Positions 4,623 to 55,091 of a stretch of 55,442 nucleotides of DNA are shown here, piece by piece (the stretch's first letter is position 1; each line of letters begins with the position of its first letter). The stretch comes from Methylophilaceae bacterium. Lineage in GTDB: Bacteria; Pseudomonadota; Gammaproteobacteria; Burkholderiales; Methylophilaceae. The stretch covers positions 1 through 55,442 of the forward strand of contig JAABQZ010000002.1 in assembly GCA_011391175.1 (NCBI GenBank), written 5' to 3'. The notes beneath the pieces were generated by a model. It had not been told where the DNA came from. It made no database searches and saw only the letters and a program-made list of their open reading frames with translations. The translations under genes were made by a program, and so were the position numbers.

Positions 4623-5195
4623 TCATTTTGGCATGTCTGCAAGCCGCATGGATATTGCCTGCTGGAGCATATGCATATCGCTCGCAATTAGAGTATGTTC
4701 AAAGGTGGCCAGTTTTGTCACGTTATCTAAATCAATTTGGCGTGGAAACACTTGCACCATGTTGTCACGTGGCGCTTCTGATTCAATAAAACCAGAGGTT
4801 AAAACTGGCACAGTATCGCAAGCAAATATAATGCTTGGCACCATTGTTTTTCCTGCTTGAGCATAAAGGTTAGTCACAAGGGAATCTGAAAATCCATAGG
4901 CCATTTTGGCGATTGTATTAGAAGTGGCAGGCGCAATCACCAGCGTGTGGTATTTGCCTGCGTAAAACAGTTCCACAGGTACGCTGCTGGCGGTTTTGTC
5001 TTGGTAAACTTTATGGCCAGTTGCGTCTAATTGTGCTTGAAAGCCGTATTGCTGGATAATTTCTGCTGCGGCACGGCTTAAAAAAATATCCACATGCCCT
5101 AAGTTTTTATCTTTGAGCGCTTGCAATATCGCGAGCGATTCGCGCAGGTAATGACCAGAACCTGTAATTGCCCAAGCAAGGCGCTGATTTTGCAT
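4623..5195 (-). CDS. Flavoprotein, dihydromethanopterin reductase (DmrB/DmrX)-like
   Basis: MQNQRLAWAITGSGHYLRESLAILQALKDKN...LVIAPATSNTIAKMAYGFSDSLVTNLYAQAGK...FACDTVPV: flavoprotein fold (UbiX/Dfp-like), C1 cluster context. Confidence 0.7.
   Translation of the reverse strand: MQNQRLAWAITGSGHYLRESLAILQALKDKNLGHVDIFLSRAAAEIIQQYGFQAQLDATGHKVYQDKTASSVPVELFYAGKYHTLVIAPATSNTIAKMAYGFSDSLVTNLYAQAGKTMVPSIIFACDTVPVLTSGFIESEAPRDNMVQVFPRQIDLDNVTKLATFEHTLIASDMHMLQQAISMRLADMPK
4633..4669. repeat. Palindromic repeat copy inside the 3' end of the DmrX-like gene
   Basis: CTGCAAGCCGCATGGATATTG: 21 contiguous bases identical to the reverse of the consensus; one palindrome arm degenerate. Confidence 0.75.
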
Positions 5196-11757: not shown

Positions 11758-13152
11758 TTATTTAAGGTATGCGTTGATTCTTGATAAGGTCTCATTTTGG
11801 CCTAATAAAGCCATCACTTGGTCGATACTGGGCGATTGTGCAATGCCTGTCAGCATCACGCGCAACGGCATGGCAAGCTTAGGAAACTTCAAGCCAAATT
11901 CAGTCACCACCGCATTGATTGCCTGATGAATCGCCTCGGCAGTCCACTCAATATGCGCAAGTTGCTGATGCAGTTTTTGCATAGCGGGCATAATTTCTGG
12001 CGTAATATGCTTTTCTACATCGGCGGCACTGGCTTGTGGCAACGCATAAAAATACGTCACATCATTAGCCAGTTGATTCAAGTTATTGGCACGTTCACGA
12101 TACAGATTTAACACAGCCTTCAAATCAGGTGCTCCAGAGGCCTTATGGATATTGGCTTGCAGGCGTGTCGAAATGTCCTCGGCCAGCGCATCCAAGGTAG
12201 CTTCTTTAATATAATGTGCATTCAGCCAGTTAAGTTTTTCCGTATTAAATTGCGCAGCTGATGGCGTAATGTGGTCTAAATCAAACCATTCGCAAAATTG
12301 CTGCATATTAAAAATTTCTGCGTCGCCATGGCTCCAGCCTAAGCGCGCCAGATAATTTAAAACAGCTTCTTTTAAATAACCATCTTCGTGATATTGCATG
12401 ACACTAACGGCACCATGGCGCTTAGACAGTTTTTGTCCGTCATCGCCCAAAATCATCGACAAATGTGCGTACTCTGGAATAGTGGCGCCAAGCGCCATCA
12501 ACATATTAATTTGGCGTGGCGTGTTATTCACATGATCATCACCGCGAATTACTTGGGTAATGCCCATTTCAAAGTCATCCACCACCACGCAAAAATTATA
12601 AGTTGGCGTGCCATCGGCGCGCGCAATAATCAAATCGTCCAACTCTGCATTGGCAATTTCAATACGGCCTTTCACCAAATCATTCCAAGCAACAACACCA
12701 GTTTGTGGGTTTTTAAAGCGTACTGTAGGCGTAATACCAGTTGGGATTTGTGGCAGGGTTTTCCCTGTCTCTGGCCGCCAGCGTCCATCGTATCTTGGCT
12801 TCAAACCTTGCTGCATCTGGCTTTCACGTAGCGCGTCCAACTCCTCTTTACTACAATAGCAATGGTAAGCCGTGCCCTTATCCAGCATGGTTTGCAGCAC
12901 TTTTTTATAGGTTTCCATGCGCTGCATCTGGTAAAACGGGCCTTCGTCATAATCTAAGCCGAGCCAATGCATACCGTCTAAAATGGCTTGCACTGCTTCT
13001 GGCGTACTGCGCTCTACATCGGTATCTTCAATACGTAGAATAAATTTTCCGCCATGCTTTTTAGCATAAGCCCAAGAAAATAGCGCAGTGCGGGCGCCGC
13101 CGATGTGTAAAAAACCAGTAGGACTGGGTGCGAAACGGGTGCGAATTACCAT
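11758..13152 (-). CDS. gltX: Glutamyl-tRNA synthetase
   Basis: TRFAPSPTGFLHIGGARTALFSWAYAKKHGG...; KLSKRHGA motif. Confidence 0.97.
   Translation of the reverse strand: MVIRTRFAPSPTGFLHIGGARTALFSWAYAKKHGGKFILRIEDTDVERSTPEAVQAILDGMHWLGLDYDEGPFYQMQRMETYKKVLQTMLDKGTAYHCYCSKEELDALRESQMQQGLKPRYDGRWRPETGKTLPQIPTGITPTVRFKNPQTGVVAWNDLVKGRIEIANAELDDLIIARADGTPTYNFCVVVDDFEMGITQVIRGDDHVNNTPRQINMLMALGATIPEYAHLSMILGDDGQKLSKRHGAVSVMQYHEDGYLKEAVLNYLARLGWSHGDAEIFNMQQFCEWFDLDHITPSAAQFNTEKLNWLNAHYIKEATLDALAEDISTRLQANIHKASGAPDLKAVLNLYRERANNLNQLANDVTYFYALPQASAADVEKHITPEIMPAMQKLHQQLAHIEWTAEAIHQAINAVVTEFGLKFPKLAMPLRVMLTGIAQSPSIDQVMALLGQNETLSRINAYLK
12130..12166. repeat. Palindromic repeat copy inside gltX coding sequence
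   Basis: ATGGATATTGGCTTGCAG: 18 contiguous bases matching the consensus (reverse) plus outer TGCT flank; other arm degenerate. Confidence 0.65.
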
Positions 13153-22216: not shown

Positions 22217-22250
22217 TTTTATTTACAAAAACCCACACCTTCAAAACACC

Positions 22251-22287
22251 TGCCCTGCAGGCCAATACCCATGGGGCTTACAGAGCA
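22251..22287. repeat. Palindromic repeat copy (intergenic)
   Basis: TGCCCTGCAGGCCAATACCCATGGGGCTTACAGAGCA; aligns without gaps to copies at 35487-35523 and 55052-55089 (reverse). Confidence 0.85.
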
Positions 22288-22325
22288 TAATTTTTCTCTC
22301 GCACATCGATTAGATGTATTACACA

Positions 22326-25247: not shown

Positions 25248-26030
25248 TCAAGCTAACCAAATGAGAGTTGCCATACGACCTGTGTCGCCATCGCGGCGAT
25301 ATGAAAAAAAACGTTCTTCATCGCTAAACGTACAAAAATCTTCGTCATATCCACCGCCATAAATATGGGCAACGCCCAAATTGTTTAAGCGCAGCGTAGC
25401 TAGTTGGTAAATATTGGCTAAGAATTTATTACCTTGCAATTTAAAGGCGCTGGCGGCATTTTTATCTTTTCCCACAAATTGCGCACGCACTTCTGCACCT
25501 ACTTCAAACGCCTTCGGGCCAATTGCAGGGCCAAGCCAAGCCATTAAATCAGCAGGCTTTAATTGTGCTGTCCTGCAGAGCTCATGAATACTGGCTTCCA
25601 GCACACCATCACATAGCCCGCGCCAACCCGCATGTACCGCAGCCACCACGCTACCCGCCTTGTCACACAACAGTACAGGTAAACAATCGGCGGTCATGGC
25701 CACACACACCACATTTTTTTGAGTAGTAAAACTCGCATCAGCACTGGGTATACAATTTATATCCACGCAGTTTGTATTAGCGGCATCAACCACCTCAATA
25801 CCATGCACTTGATTTAACCACACTGGTTCGCTAGGTAACAATTGACTCAGCAATTGGCGGTTTTGCGCAACATGCATCGGGTTATCTTTAACATGCGTGC
25901 CAAAATTTAAGCTGTTATAAGGTGCTAGGCTGTAGCCAGCTTTGCGAGTGGTCTGCAAGGCATGCACATTTGCTGGTGCTGGCCATTTTGGAACGATAAA
26001 ATCAGGACTAATCATCCTCTCACTCGTCAC
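25248..26030 (-). CDS. pgeF: Peptidoglycan editing factor PgeF (laccase-domain, YfiH)
   Basis: TADCLPVLLCDKAGSVVAAVHAGWRGLCDGVLEA; GYDEDFCTFSDEERFFSYRRDGDTGRMATLIWL. Confidence 0.94.
   Translation of the reverse strand: MTSERMISPDFIVPKWPAPANVHALQTTRKAGYSLAPYNSLNFGTHVKDNPMHVAQNRQLLSQLLPSEPVWLNQVHGIEVVDAANTNCVDINCIPSADASFTTQKNVVCVAMTADCLPVLLCDKAGSVVAAVHAGWRGLCDGVLEASIHELCRTAQLKPADLMAWLGPAIGPKAFEVGAEVRAQFVGKDKNAASAFKLQGNKFLANIYQLATLRLNNLGVAHIYGGGYDEDFCTFSDEERFFSYRRDGDTGRMATLIWLA
25569..25605. repeat. Candidate degenerate repeat copy inside pgeF coding sequence
   Basis: Core CTGCAGAGCTCATGAATACTGGCTTCCAG; 22/29 identity to reverse consensus without gaps. Confidence 0.4.
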
Positions 26031-35431: not shown

Positions 35432-35486
35432 TTTGATGGGTATTTGTTAATTAATTAATATTGTTTAGCAAGCGAGCAAAAAAATA

Positions 35487-35523
35487 TGCCCTGCGAGGCA
35501 ATGTCCATGCGGCCTGCAGAGCA
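35487..35523. repeat. Palindromic repeat copy (intergenic, hisS-ispG spacer)
   Basis: TGCCCTGCGAGGCAATGTCCATGCGGCCTGCAGAGCA preceded by aaaaaaata. Confidence 0.85.
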
Positions 35524-35566
35524 CTGTCCGAAAGGTACGTGTTTTAGCTTAGACGCTAGCTTGCAT

Positions 35567-40250: not shown

Positions 40251-40384
40251 TTGAAACTCCAAGAAAATAATTAAATGAACTACTTAGAAAGGTGCAGATT
40301 CTAGCATTTTTGCAGGATTTGATAAACCATCAATTTGTAGCATTTTGTAAATATAGCGCTTAATTTGTGGCAAAATCTAGGCTG

Positions 40385-41602
40385 ATGAAATCTGCAAACA
40401 TAAATACTTTTCCAATCACTGCCACCTGCCCTGCATGCGGCTTGTTGTGTGATGACATTGCACTTGAAAATATCAATCATCAATTAAAAGTGACCAAGCC
40501 TAATTGCGCAAAAACAGTTGCATTTTTTGAGCGGGCTATAGGCGAAAATACATCGCTAATTGCAGGCAAACCAGCCACATTGCAAGAAGCCATTTTGAAG
40601 GTTGCTGAAATTTTAAAACAGGCTCACAAGCCAATATTCACTGGACTAGGCACCGATGTACAAGGCTATCGTGCCTTATACAGCTTATCTCAAAAAACTA
40701 GCGCTAGGCTTACCCACATGAACGCTACCAGCATGGCGCGCAACCTAAAAGTGCTGCAAAGTACGGGTTGGCAAACCACTACGCTAACCGAGGTGAAAAA
40801 CCGCGCTGATGTCATTGTGTGCTTTGGCAGCGATTTGTTAAGCCACAACGCACGCTTTTTTGAGCGCTTTGTAGATGCAGATGGCATGTTTGTAAGTGCC
40901 AAAAATCGGCAAGTTGTGGTATTGGGTGAAGCTAGCAATCAAGCCATTAAAAGTGATGCTCTGCAAGCCGCATGGGTATTGCCTTGCAGGGCAACTGATT
41001 TGCCCTCGATAACAATTGCTTTGCGTGCATTGGTTGCTGGCAAGCAGCTAAAAGCCACTAAAATTGCAGGCGTAAAGGTAGGTGACTTGCAAACGTTTGC
41101 CGATAAACTAAAAGCCGCCAAATATGCGGTACTGACTTGGGTGGCAAAAGATTTAGACTTTGATCATGCCGAATTGACTATTCAAAACATTACTGAAACA
41201 GTGGCTATTTTAAACAAAACAACGCGTGCGGCTGGTTTGCCACTTGGCGGTAGCGATGGCGACACTAGCGCCAATAACGCGAACACTTGGTTAAGCGGGT
41301 TTGCGTTAAATGATGACGCTTTAAATGACGAGCACGCGGAACATGATGCAATGCTGTGGGTAAATAGCTTCAGCCCAGAAAAAGCGTCTCCACAAACGGA
41401 TATGCCTTTGATTATCATTGGTAATTCAAACATCCAACATCAGGCTGAGGTATTTATCCCCATCGCCATACCTGGGTTAGATTGTAGCGGTACATTATTT
41501 AGAGTGGATTCATCGGTGGTTTTGCCGCTAAAAAAAGTGCGTGAGAATAACTTACCAACATTGGCTGAAGTGCTCTGCCAACTTGAAGAGCGGCTCAAAT
41601 GA
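40385..41602 (+). CDS. fhcB: Formylmethanofuran dehydrogenase subunit B homologue (formyltransferase/hydrolase complex FhcB)
   Basis: MKSANINTFPITATCPACGLLCDDIALEN; operon with fhcA/D/C. ORF listed from 40367. Confidence 0.88.
   Translation: MKSANINTFPITATCPACGLLCDDIALENINHQLKVTKPNCAKTVAFFERAIGENTSLIAGKPATLQEAILKVAEILKQAHKPIFTGLGTDVQGYRALYSLSQKTSARLTHMNATSMARNLKVLQSTGWQTTTLTEVKNRADVIVCFGSDLLSHNARFFERFVDADGMFVSAKNRQVVVLGEASNQAIKSDALQAAWVLPCRATDLPSITIALRALVAGKQLKATKIAGVKVGDLQTFADKLKAAKYAVLTWVAKDLDFDHAELTIQNITETVAILNKTTRAAGLPLGGSDGDTSANNANTWLSGFALNDDALNDEHAEHDAMLWVNSFSPEKASPQTDMPLIIIGNSNIQHQAEVFIPIAIPGLDCSGTLFRVDSSVVLPLKKVRENNLPTLAEVLCQLEERLK
40957..40993. repeat. Palindromic repeat copy inside fhcB coding sequence
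   Basis: Core 40961-40989 CTGCAAGCCGCATGGGTATTGCCTTGCAG; reverse complement matches consensus at 27/29 and flanks TGCC/AGCA also match. Confidence 0.85.
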
Positions 41603-43254
41603 TTACCTTATTAAAAAATGGTAAATTGTACGATCCTGCGCACAGTAAAAATGGCGTAGTAGAGGATATTTACATCCGTGATGGGCGTATTACCTCTAAA
41701 CCCAGCCAAACTGAAAAAATTAATCAAACCTATGATTTAACTGGAAAAATTGTGATGGCTGGCGCGATTGATATGCATAGCCATATTGGCGGTGGCAAAG
41801 TGAATATTGCGCGCATGATGTTGCCAGAGTTTCAAGAAACTAAAAATTACAGTGAACCCGAAGCCCATATTTGCACGCCGAATTGCAGCCATATGGCCAC
41901 ACCTAACACTAGCGATACTGGGTTTAGATACATTGAAATGGGTTACACCGCCGCATTTGAACCTGCCATTTTGCCGATTAACGCGCGCCAAGCCCATCTG
42001 GAGATGGCTGACACGCCGATGATAGACAAAGGCGGCTATGCCATGCTGGGCAATGATGATTACTTTTTACGATTACTGAGTCAAAAAGCAGACCAAAAAG
42101 TAATCAATAACTACGTCGCTTGGACGCTACACGCGACACAAGCCATCGGCATTAAAGTGGTGAATCCAGGGGGCATTTCAGCGTTTAAGTTCAACCAGCG
42201 CAGGTTAAATTTGGATGAAAATAATGTGCATTATCAGGTCACGCCACGCGAAATTCTAAAAAGTTTAAGTCGCGCGGTACATGACTTAGGCATCGCTAAG
42301 CCGCTGCATGTGCATTGCAATAACTTAGGTGCGGCGGGCAACTTTCAAACCACGCTCGACACCATGGGCGCATCTGATGGCGTGCCGATGCACTTGACGC
42401 ACATCCAGTTTCACAGCTATGGCACAGAAGGCGATAAGAAATTTTCATCTGCTGCTGCGCAAATCTCTGAGGCGCTGAATAATAACCAGCACATCACGGC
42501 CGATGTCGGGCAGATTTTATTCGGCCAAACGGTGACTGCATCAGGTGACAGCATGATGCAGCACTTAAACACCAAGCATGCCAACCCCAAAAAGTCAGTA
42601 ATTATGGATATTGAATGTGATGCAGGTTGTGGCGTGGTGCCATTTAAATATCGCGACCAAAACTATGTCAATGCCCTGCAGTGGGCTATTGGCTTAGAGA
42701 TTTTCCTGTCTGTTGAAGATCCATGGCGTATTTTCTTGACCACAGACCACCCCAATGGCGCGCCCTTTACCAGTTACCCACATTTAATTCGCTTGTTGAT
42801 GGATAAAAGCTTTAGAAACGAAGTCTTTGCAAAGCTTAATTTAGACGCGCAAGCCATGAGCAACCTCACATCGTTGAATCGTGAGTATAGCTTGTACGAA
42901 ATCGCTATCATGACGCGCGCAGGAGCAGCCAAATTAATCGGTTTAAATGACCGCGGTCATTTAGGCGCTGGCGCTGCAGCAGATATTACCATTTACACAG
43001 ATCAACCCGACCGTGAAGCCATGTTTGCCAAACCAGATTACGTATTTAAAGATGGTGAACTGGTTGTTAAAGATGGCAAAGTCGTGAAAGTAGTATGGGG
43101 TAAAACGCATACCACCAAACCTGCATTTGATATTGGCGTAGAACAAGATTTAAAAAAATATTTCGATAAATACCATACCATTCAATTAGATAACTTTAAG
43201 ATTTCAGATGACGAATTTGCTGATGATGGTCGTGGCAAAATAGTCACACACTAA
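41599..43254 (+). CDS. fhcA: Formylmethanofuran dehydrogenase subunit A homologue (FhcA)
   Basis: MITLLKNGKLYDPAHSKNG...VMAGAIDMHSHIGGGKVNIARMM; HVHCNNLG; amidohydrolase-type FwdA. Confidence 0.95.
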   Translation: MITLLKNGKLYDPAHSKNGVVEDIYIRDGRITSKPSQTEKINQTYDLTGKIVMAGAIDMHSHIGGGKVNIARMMLPEFQETKNYSEPEAHICTPNCSHMATPNTSDTGFRYIEMGYTAAFEPAILPINARQAHLEMADTPMIDKGGYAMLGNDDYFLRLLSQKADQKVINNYVAWTLHATQAIGIKVVNPGGISAFKFNQRRLNLDENNVHYQVTPREILKSLSRAVHDLGIAKPLHVHCNNLGAAGNFQTTLDTMGASDGVPMHLTHIQFHSYGTEGDKKFSSAAAQISEALNNNQHITADVGQILFGQTVTASGDSMMQHLNTKHANPKKSVIMDIECDAGCGVVPFKYRDQNYVNALQWAIGLEIFLSVEDPWRIFLTTDHPNGAPFTSYPHLIRLLMDKSFRNEVFAKLNLDAQAMSNLTSLNREYSLYEIAIMTRAGAAKLIGLNDRGHLGAGAAADITIYTDQPDREAMFAKPDYVFKDGELVVKDGKVVKVVWGKTHTTKPAFDIGVEQDLKKYFDKYHTIQLDNFKISDDEFADDGRGKIVTH

Positions 43255-43944: not shown

Positions 43945-44865
43945 ATGCTTTTAAACGGTATACATATTGACGACACCTTCGCTGAGGCATTTAATATGCG
44001 TGGCACGCGCGTCATCATCACTGCGCAAAATCATAAGTGGGCATACCACGCCGCCAATGCCATGACAGGCTTTGCCACTAGCGTGATTGGCTGTGGCGTA
44101 GAGGCAGGCATCGAGCGTGAGTTATCTGCCGACGAAACACCCGACGGCAGGCCTGGGGTGAATGTACTGATGTTCGCCATGGGCAGCAAAGTGCTGATGC
44201 AACAGTTGGAAACGCGTATGGGACAATGCATCCTGACCTGCCCAACTGCAGCAGCATTTGCTGGTATTGATTCTGAAGACCAGATTAACTTGGGCAAGCA
44301 TTTGCGCTATTTTGGCGATGGCTACCAAACTTCTAAGCTGTTAAATGGGATACGCTACTGGCGTATTCCTGTGATGGATGGCGAATTTTTAGTGCAAGAA
44401 ACCACTGGCATGGTGCGCGCCATCGGTGGCGGTAATTTTTTAATTCTCGCCACCAGCCAAGCCAGCGCTTTACATGCAGCAGAAACCGCCATTGTAGCGA
44501 TGAAACAAGTGCCGAATGTGATAATGCCGTTTCCTGGTGGCGTGGTGCGTAGTGGTTCTAAAGTGGGCAGTAAATACCCTAGTATGTTTGCCTCTACCAA
44601 CGATGCTTTTTGTCCCACACTCAAAGGCTTAGTTAACACCGAGCTAAGTGACGACATTGAAAGCGTCATGGAAATTGTGATTGACGGGCTGAGCTTTGAC
44701 GACATTGCAATATCTATGAAAGTCGGTATTGAAGCGATTTGTGCATTAAATAAAATCAGTGGTGAAAAAAGTGGCGTAAAACGTATTTCTGCAGGCAATT
44801 ATGGCGGCAAGCTTGGGCCACATCATTTTAAATTGCATGAGATTCTGGGTGGAAAATCAACGTGA
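43945..44865 (+). CDS. fhcD: Formylmethanofuran--tetrahydromethanopterin N-formyltransferase
   Basis: MLLNGIHIDDTFAEAFNMRGTRVIITAQNHKWAYHAANAMTGFATSVIGCGVEAGIE. Confidence 0.95.
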   Translation: MLLNGIHIDDTFAEAFNMRGTRVIITAQNHKWAYHAANAMTGFATSVIGCGVEAGIERELSADETPDGRPGVNVLMFAMGSKVLMQQLETRMGQCILTCPTAAAFAGIDSEDQINLGKHLRYFGDGYQTSKLLNGIRYWRIPVMDGEFLVQETTGMVRAIGGGNFLILATSQASALHAAETAIVAMKQVPNVIMPFPGGVVRSGSKVGSKYPSMFASTNDAFCPTLKGLVNTELSDDIESVMEIVIDGLSFDDIAISMKVGIEAICALNKISGEKSGVKRISAGNYGGKLGPHHFKLHEILGGKST

Positions 44866-46162: not shown

Positions 46163-47116
46163 ATGTCATCGTCAACACACAAATATTTAACAGCCGCGCT
46201 GTATAAGTTCGTCTCATTACCTAATTACGCTGCCCTACAGCCCAATATTCATGCCGCTTGCGTGGCACACAAAATAAAAGGTACCATTTTATTAGCAGAA
46301 GAAGGTATTAACGGCACGATTGCAGGATTGCCAGCAGATATTCACGCTGTACTTGATTTTTTGCGCACCGACGCTACATTTGAGGGGAAATTTTCCACCT
46401 TAGAGCACAAAGAATCCTACGCCGACGAGCACCCATTTTATCGCATGAAGGTGAAGTTAAAGAAAGAAATCGTCACCATGGGCGTGCCTAGCGTAAATCC
46501 CAATAACACCGTCGGCACTTACGTAAAACCCGAGGACTGGAACGCACTAATTGCCGACCCTGACGTGATAGTATTAGACACGCGCAACGATTATGAGGTG
46601 CACATTGGCACCTTCAAAGGTGCAGTTAACCCAGTAACTACCACGTTTCGCGAGTTTCCCGAATACGTCTCGCAAAATCTGGATAAAACCAAACACAAAA
46701 AAGTGGCTATGTTTTGCACTGGCGGCATCCGCTGCGAAAAAGCCAGCAGTTATATGCTAGAACAAGGTTTTGAAGCTGTTTATCACTTGCAAGGCGGCAT
46801 TTTAAAATACCTAGAAACTGTGCCAGAAGAACAAAGCCTGTGGCAAGGTGAGTGCTTTGTATTTGACCAACGCGTCGCGGTAAAGCACGGCTTAGAAGTC
46901 GGCGAGTTTGATCAATGCTACGCCTGCCGCATGCCGCTTTCACCACAAGAACTTAAATCGCCGCTATACACGGCTGGCATTAGTTGCCCACATTGTTACG
47001 ACTCTCTCACCGAAGAAAAGAAAAAAAACCTCACTGAGCGCCAAAAACAGGTGATTTTGGCCAAACAACGTGGTGAAACGCATATTGGTGGAAATAAAAA
47101 ATCAAATGTCAGCTAA
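46163..47116 (+). CDS. trhO: tRNA uridine hydroxylase / rhodanese-domain protein (YceA/TrhO)
   Basis: [62 protein letters not shown]. Confidence 0.92.
46231..46267. repeat. Candidate degenerate repeat copy inside trhO coding sequence
   Basis: TGCCCTACAGCCCAATATTCATGCCGCTTGCGTGGCA; about 29/37 identity to consensus without gaps. Confidence 0.5.
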
Positions 47117-55010: not shown

Positions 55011-55051
55011 CATCGTATTGATTAAGCGCAGCAGCACCACGTAAAAAAATA

Positions 55052-55091
55052 TGCTCCTGCAAGCCTCACGGATATTGGCTTGCAGGCCTGC
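55052..55091. repeat. Palindromic repeat copy (intergenic, guaB-guaA spacer)
   Basis: TGCTCCTGCAAGCCTCACGGATATTGGCTTGCAGGCCTGC preceded by aaaaaaata; perfect 10-bp arms CCTGCAAGCC/GGCTTGCAGG. Confidence 0.85.

Follow-up and report, generated by a model that had tools for sequence, protein, structure and literature searches.

How did the coding sequence of a conserved enzyme subunit come to carry, in frame, a palindrome that is dispersed through its genome? The question arises in fhcB, which lies in a window of 55,442 nucleotides (the whole stretch of DNA analysed here) from a Methylophilaceae bacterium. Its product, of 411 residues with an uncertain start codon, belongs to the FmdB/FhcB family (E 1.4e-70 in a profile search with TIGR03129, under the curated cut-off), and fhcA (41599-43254) and then fhcD (43945-44865) follow downstream. 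A first-pass annotation had reported a repeat copy embedded in frame in this gene at 40957-40993, had judged it very unlikely to be chance and had likened it to the Rickettsia palindromic elements (RPEs), which insert in frame into open reading frames. The in-frame copy is indeed there: a 36-mer at 40958-40993 (+) matches TGCAAGCCNNANGGNTATTGNCTTGCA with 0 mismatches, the end given earlier being right and the start one base early. It is also the best of the eight copies in the window, scored with a 41-nt weight matrix, and the surrounding stretch 40949-41002 resembles the intergenic stretch 22242-22295 over 54 nt (83%).

40367..41602, + strand: fhcB, formyltransferase/hydrolase complex subunit B
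40955..40995, + strand: dispersed palindromic motif within fhcB, 60.6 of 69.1 bits, encoding DALQAAWVLPCRA
12128..12168, + strand: motif copy in gltX (11758-13152, - strand), 41.9 bits
4631..4671, + strand: motif copy at the 3' end of a flavoprotein (AfpA-like) gene (4623-5195, - strand), 34.8 bits
25567..25607, + strand: degenerate copy, 29.0 bits, in a gene of the Cu-oxidase_4 / polyphenol oxidoreductase laccase family (25248-26030, - strand)
46229..46269, - strand: degenerate copy in a gene at 46163-47116 (+ strand), 29.8 bits
22249..22289, - strand: intergenic copy with A and T tracts, 55.9 bits, hairpin fold -18.7 kcal/mol
35485..35525, - strand: intergenic copy, 49.9 bits, common to the relative G009
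55051..55091, + strand: intergenic copy, 44.5 bits, no counterpart found at the orthologous G009 site

A long palindrome confined to one clade of Methylotenera

The consensus drawn from 146 copies, AAAAtnnATGCCCTGCAAGCC-KCATGGRTATT-GGCTTGCAGGGCATcwTTTT, is a 41-nt near-palindrome in which 15-nt inverted arms enclose an 11-nt asymmetric centre (KCATGGRTATT); the arms are often flanked on the outside by weak tracts of A and T, and the information content is about 50 bits. Copies were counted in two ways, as matches with at most three mismatches to a 27-nt core or with the 41-nt weight matrix, and the reversed motif served as control. The core count gave 64 copies in the genome of the window (G000) and 84 in the motif-rich relative G009, with 0 for the reversed control, and the matrix gave about 116 copies in the roughly 1.0 Mb of G000 and 137 in the 1.15 Mb of G009, again with 0 for the reversed motif. 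Both orientations are common among core matches genome-wide. Positions of the motif are linked mostly to their neighbours, a pattern that speaks against distinct families of copies, and no clear subfamilies appear. Selection for RNA structure was rejected because covariation between the arms is barely above that of independent columns, and separate half-motifs were rejected as the unit because half-only sites are few; the unit is the whole palindrome. Identical arms around other centres (for example TTATCTGGTGC) occur in G013, in G004 and at G000:C50:50945, hinting at more motif variants. The G009 tiles also hold a second overrepresented 12-mer, GTCATTCCCGCG (14 occurrences against 0.04 expected), which belongs to another repeat family.

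Across the genus, core copies number 84 (G009), 64 (G000), 37, 31, 30, 26, 16, 8, 8 and 4, and five further members (G006, G007, G011, G012 and G014) have 0 or 1. These five motif-free species group together in a tree of GltX and FhcB, and beyond the genus there are stray single matches only; the motif is confined to one clade within Methylotenera. A GTDB search returned 13 exact-core stretches, mostly labelled Methylotenera or unnamed Proteobacteria. On a contig labelled Saccharibacteria (L120, 1262-1284) there is a bare core with unrelated flanks that scores below 22 bits. Viral carriage was rejected, exact core matches in IMG/VR being 0. DNA specific to the lineage holds 3 copies in 32 kb, against 3.7 expected, and so shows no clear depletion. 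Among the open-licence papers we found no description of a repeat of this kind in Methylophilaceae.

Of the competence machinery, ComEC is found in 13 of the 15 genus members and the DprA domain, above cut-off, in 14 of the 15, and both are equally present in motif-free relatives, so that they do not discriminate. The Y1/RAYT transposase (PF01797) is absent from six motif-rich genomes (G000, G009, G003, G005, G010 and G013, metagenome-assembled and not all complete) and is present in G004 and in the motif-free G011.

The fhcB copy was assembled in place, and other genic copies are mostly ungapped

If the copy in fhcB had been inserted, its protein should carry some 12-15 residues that related proteins lack. 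Instead, the FhcB proteins of 29 relatives align through the motif segment with no net residue gain, and the segment stands in, residue for residue, for sequence of the ISPDGKQPTVLPCDLDRLPE type. Nor is the nucleotide stretch conserved in all fhcB genes, repeat-free genomes included: at this site the motif-free species have a strongly negative overall score. Between these extremes are partial states. Three species, G001, G003 and G008, combine a right arm of 18.5-19.8 bits (maximum 25.8) with a left half that is still the ancestral ISPxG.xP, and thus the right arm arose first in fhcB. The right arm scores 19.5 bits in G002 and is perfect in G010 (25.8 bits), and arms and centre together are full only in G000 and G009 and near-full in G005. 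Because there are species with the right arm alone next to an ancestral left half, the fhcB copy was assembled in place and stepwise, first the right arm and then the left arm and centre. The ungapped alignment and the right-arm-only relatives rule out insertion into fhcB, and with it the RPE-like reading of this copy.

The other genic copies are mostly ungapped as well, as judged from selected genes standing for the whole genome. The gltX and afpA copies of the window are ungapped against relatives, and those in FolP, FabD and RibF and the second of two in MutS are ungapped against PDB homologues; at the first of the two, MutS carries 2 residues more than a solved homologue. For a 59-bit copy in a JmjC gene, and for mutS, the match lengths in G000 give no sign of an extra 13 or so residues. 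Where genic copies sit, residues like those of the motif were already present in the protein; in FhcB, a partly conserved VLPC supplies part of the motif's right half.

Within genes the motif is maintained as DNA

A protein requirement does not account for the copies inside genes. When the codon order of genes was shuffled, 0 matches were obtained against 53 real genic copies in G000 and 50 in G009, and when synonymous codons were redrawn with the proteins kept, 2.4 and 1.4 matches were obtained against the same 53 and 50. The genic copies are thus neither chance nor protein-driven, as the first-pass annotation had judged for the one in fhcB. At the fhcB site several other members of the genus keep AGG, a rare codon for Arg (4.9% of the Arg codons in G000).

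In genic cores, 91.3% of third codon positions are identical in the two genomes G000 and G009, against 75.5% in flanks (p 1.3e-5), in a comparison restricted to copies that had no influence on which DNA was fetched, whereas codon positions 1 and 2 are 88.1% identical in cores and 94.7% in flanks. Since third positions are conserved above the flanks and the first two positions below them, the motif lies in tolerant segments in which the nucleotides are preserved, and it is the DNA sequence itself, at synonymous sites, that is maintained. These genomes are metagenome-assembled, gene calling relied on a simple coding score, and the DNA sampled from G009 was chosen around copies, which was corrected for in the codon-position comparison.

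Copies favour convergent gene ends and a preferred frame

Nearly half of all copies are intragenic. The remainder crowd into gaps between convergent genes, which hold 34 of 63 non-genic copies in G000 and 46 of 87 in G009 (p down to 1e-15), and just 2 in each genome fall in divergent gaps. At the intergenic copy near 22.25 kb a simple terminator scan found no terminator, and the A/T tracts beside the motif are weak. Genic copies in G000 favour one orientation, and a preferred frame, read as ALQANIHxA, accounts for 33 of 53 genic copies in G000 (p 1e-13) and 27 of 50 in G009 (p 2e-9).

Replication and repair genes make up 8 of about 52 copy-bearing genes, compared with 1 of 40 length-weighted random genes, an excess that is no more than suggestive (p 0.04, one-sided) and was noticed post hoc. 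Copies occur in mutS (two copies, L158:2532-5084), mutL (L141:14148-16115), polA (L144:2-2008) and dnaX (L155:18492-20000), and in an adjacent pair encoding a PD-(D/E)XK nuclease and a UvrD helicase (L151:3448-9623), which we ourselves read as addAB-like. Further copy-bearing genes are hda and one for a photolyase-related protein. Another C1 gene of G000, encoding methenyl-H4MPT cyclohydrolase (L155:4447-5403), has a copy of 48 bits close to the N-terminal end.

An in-frame 57-nt block and inverted centres

Two rearrangements distinguish this family. At 17 sites in G009 and one in G000, a 57-nt block interrupts the motif, always between CTGCAA and AAGCC, and lengthens it to about 97 nt, compared with 41-54 nt for a basic copy. 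The block encodes a peptide containing LQPQGLSPQNIPAKAGYS and is in frame in several genes, its 57 nt being 19 codons, so that the reading frame is kept. With it, G009 gains 19 residues in hda and 25 in all in gltX, and the block sometimes sits on an otherwise conserved local copy, as in hda. In this extended form the family resembles RPEs; the earlier comparison, which fails for fhcB, thus holds for the in-frame extension in G009 gltX and hda. In addition, several orthologous sites have the 11-nt centre in opposite orientations in G000 and G009. Neither feature is explained by simple allelic uptake.

G009, L207:3970-4024: 57-nt block in gltX
G009, L222:386-439: 57-nt block in hda
G009, L225:10816-10869 and L239:10853-10907: 57-nt block, with 13 more G009 sites
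G000, L174:8414-8468: 57-nt block, the sole G000 site
G000, L130:11514, L138:15591, L159:8878 and L174:8466, with the orthologous G009 sites: inverted centre

What drives the motif into genes?

The motif is restricted to one clade, biased in its genomic position and built in place in fhcB. We give roughly even chances to the explanation that the fhcB stretch is a copy of a clade-specific DNA recognition motif, driven in the way that DNA uptake sequences are. Both an uptake function and an uptake drive are suggested here by analogy with known systems. DNA with a better match to the motif would be preferentially taken up, or otherwise favoured, and would then be recombined into the homologous site, such that matches would improve stepwise wherever the protein tolerates change. 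Between convergent genes the palindrome may be kept because it could double as a two-way terminator-like hairpin. Several observations weigh against an uptake drive: ComEC and DprA occur just as much in motif-free relatives, the motif is long and sparse for an uptake sequence, lineage-specific DNA shows no clear shortage of copies, MutS has 2 additional residues at its first copy, and centres are inverted and a 57-nt block added at the sites described above.

The main rival, which we hold to be possible if less probable, is ectopic conversion, in which a self-spreading palindrome of REP or MITE type, without a gene of its own, has copies that convert each other and partly similar sites through short template switches or annealing. 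Such conversion would let copies arise in genes of unchanged length, flip the centre and move the 57-nt block from site to site, and it accounts better than an uptake drive for the inversions at orthologous sites and for a block that always lies at the same motif point. An information content near 50 bits also fits, and the half-motif states are compatible with short conversion tracts. However, linkage reveals no clear subfamilies of copies, synonymous sites are conserved between species at the same locus, the Y1/RAYT transposase is missing from G000, G009 and the four other motif-rich genomes, and genic copies are located where the protein had similar residues beforehand. An uptake-type drive and ectopic conversion could also act together. 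It seems rather unlikely that the motif is a self-propagating sequence of an undescribed kind, one that writes into coding DNA arm by arm and without insertion, converts sites that match it in part, inverts its centre and bears, at a single fixed position, an optional cassette of 57 nt (19 codons), all with no transposase.

Somewhat less likely again is a site at which a regulatory or chromosome-organising protein binds, kept by ordinary selection unrelated to uptake. A near-palindrome without clear base-pair covariation, maintained inside genes and common in both orientations, would suit such a site, but about 50 bits is more than a binding site needs, and binding predicts neither the crowding at convergent 3' ends nor the 57-nt insertion nor the wide spread of copy number in one genus. 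An RPE-like palindromic element inserted in frame into fhcB is very improbable: palindromes do lie in frame in conserved genes, and the 57-nt extension is a true in-frame gain in length in G009, but fhcB, gltX and afpA align without the expected insertion, and right-arm-only states stand beside an ancestral left half in fhcB. Chance or protein-driven likeness of fhcB to the repeat, for which the partly conserved VLPC is the one point in favour, can be dismissed given a reversed control of 0, codon controls of about 0-2 against 53 and 50, and the retained AGG codon.

Relation to known systems and significance

Assembly in place is also the proposed origin of the DNA uptake tags that transformable bacteria carry, and the known uptake units are asymmetric, 10-12 nt long and present in roughly 1,500 copies per Neisseria genome. 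Like the DUS of Neisseria and the USS of Pasteurellaceae such as Haemophilus, the Methylotenera motif is clade-specific and plentiful at the ends of genes in the form of terminator-like hairpins made of inverted repeats; like them, too, it lies inside genes in preferred frames, is more conserved than the sequence around it where core genes are permissive, and occurs in repair genes. High conservation of uptake sequences has been reported where the core genome is permissive (PMC2397512). They favour one orientation in reading frames, are biased toward gene termini in Pasteurellaceae and reportedly toward genome maintenance genes, and have been proposed to act as terminators (PMC2346458). Unlike them, the Methylotenera motif is about 41 nt long, is itself palindromic with about 50 bits, is sparser (about 120 per Mb), and undergoes centre inversion and a 57-nt extension.

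Other repeat families share fewer of these features. RPEs are likewise palindromes in frame in conserved protein genes, with a preferred frame, and the 57-nt form adds residues to gltX and hda as they do, but RPEs are insertions of 105-146 bp (PMC2229807), whereas the basic 41-nt Methylotenera copies, including that in fhcB, are shorter and were not inserted. REP/RAYT elements are similarly short intergenic palindromes that avoid promoter-type gaps, but identity with them was rejected because six motif-rich genomes are without a Y1-type transposase, and nearly half of the Methylotenera copies are intragenic. MITEs such as Correia/NEMIS and ERIC share terminal inverted repeats and, with the extended form, in-frame fusions, but the basic Methylotenera copies show no target insertion and are held at synonymous sites. 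HIP1 of cyanobacteria is also an overrepresented palindrome present in genes, though at 8 nt and far denser than the Methylotenera motif.

The established cases of sequence-specific DNA uptake tags come from two bacterial families. If the uptake explanation is true, the Methylotenera motif would be a third, independent case, long and palindromic, in freshwater methylotrophs, and the origin of a tag, whether by insertion, point mutation or recombination, would be traceable within a genus whose species range from 0 to more than 100 copies. Should the uptake explanation be wrong, the motif would still exemplify a distinct route by which repeats enter proteins, since it reshapes conserved enzymes without insertion.
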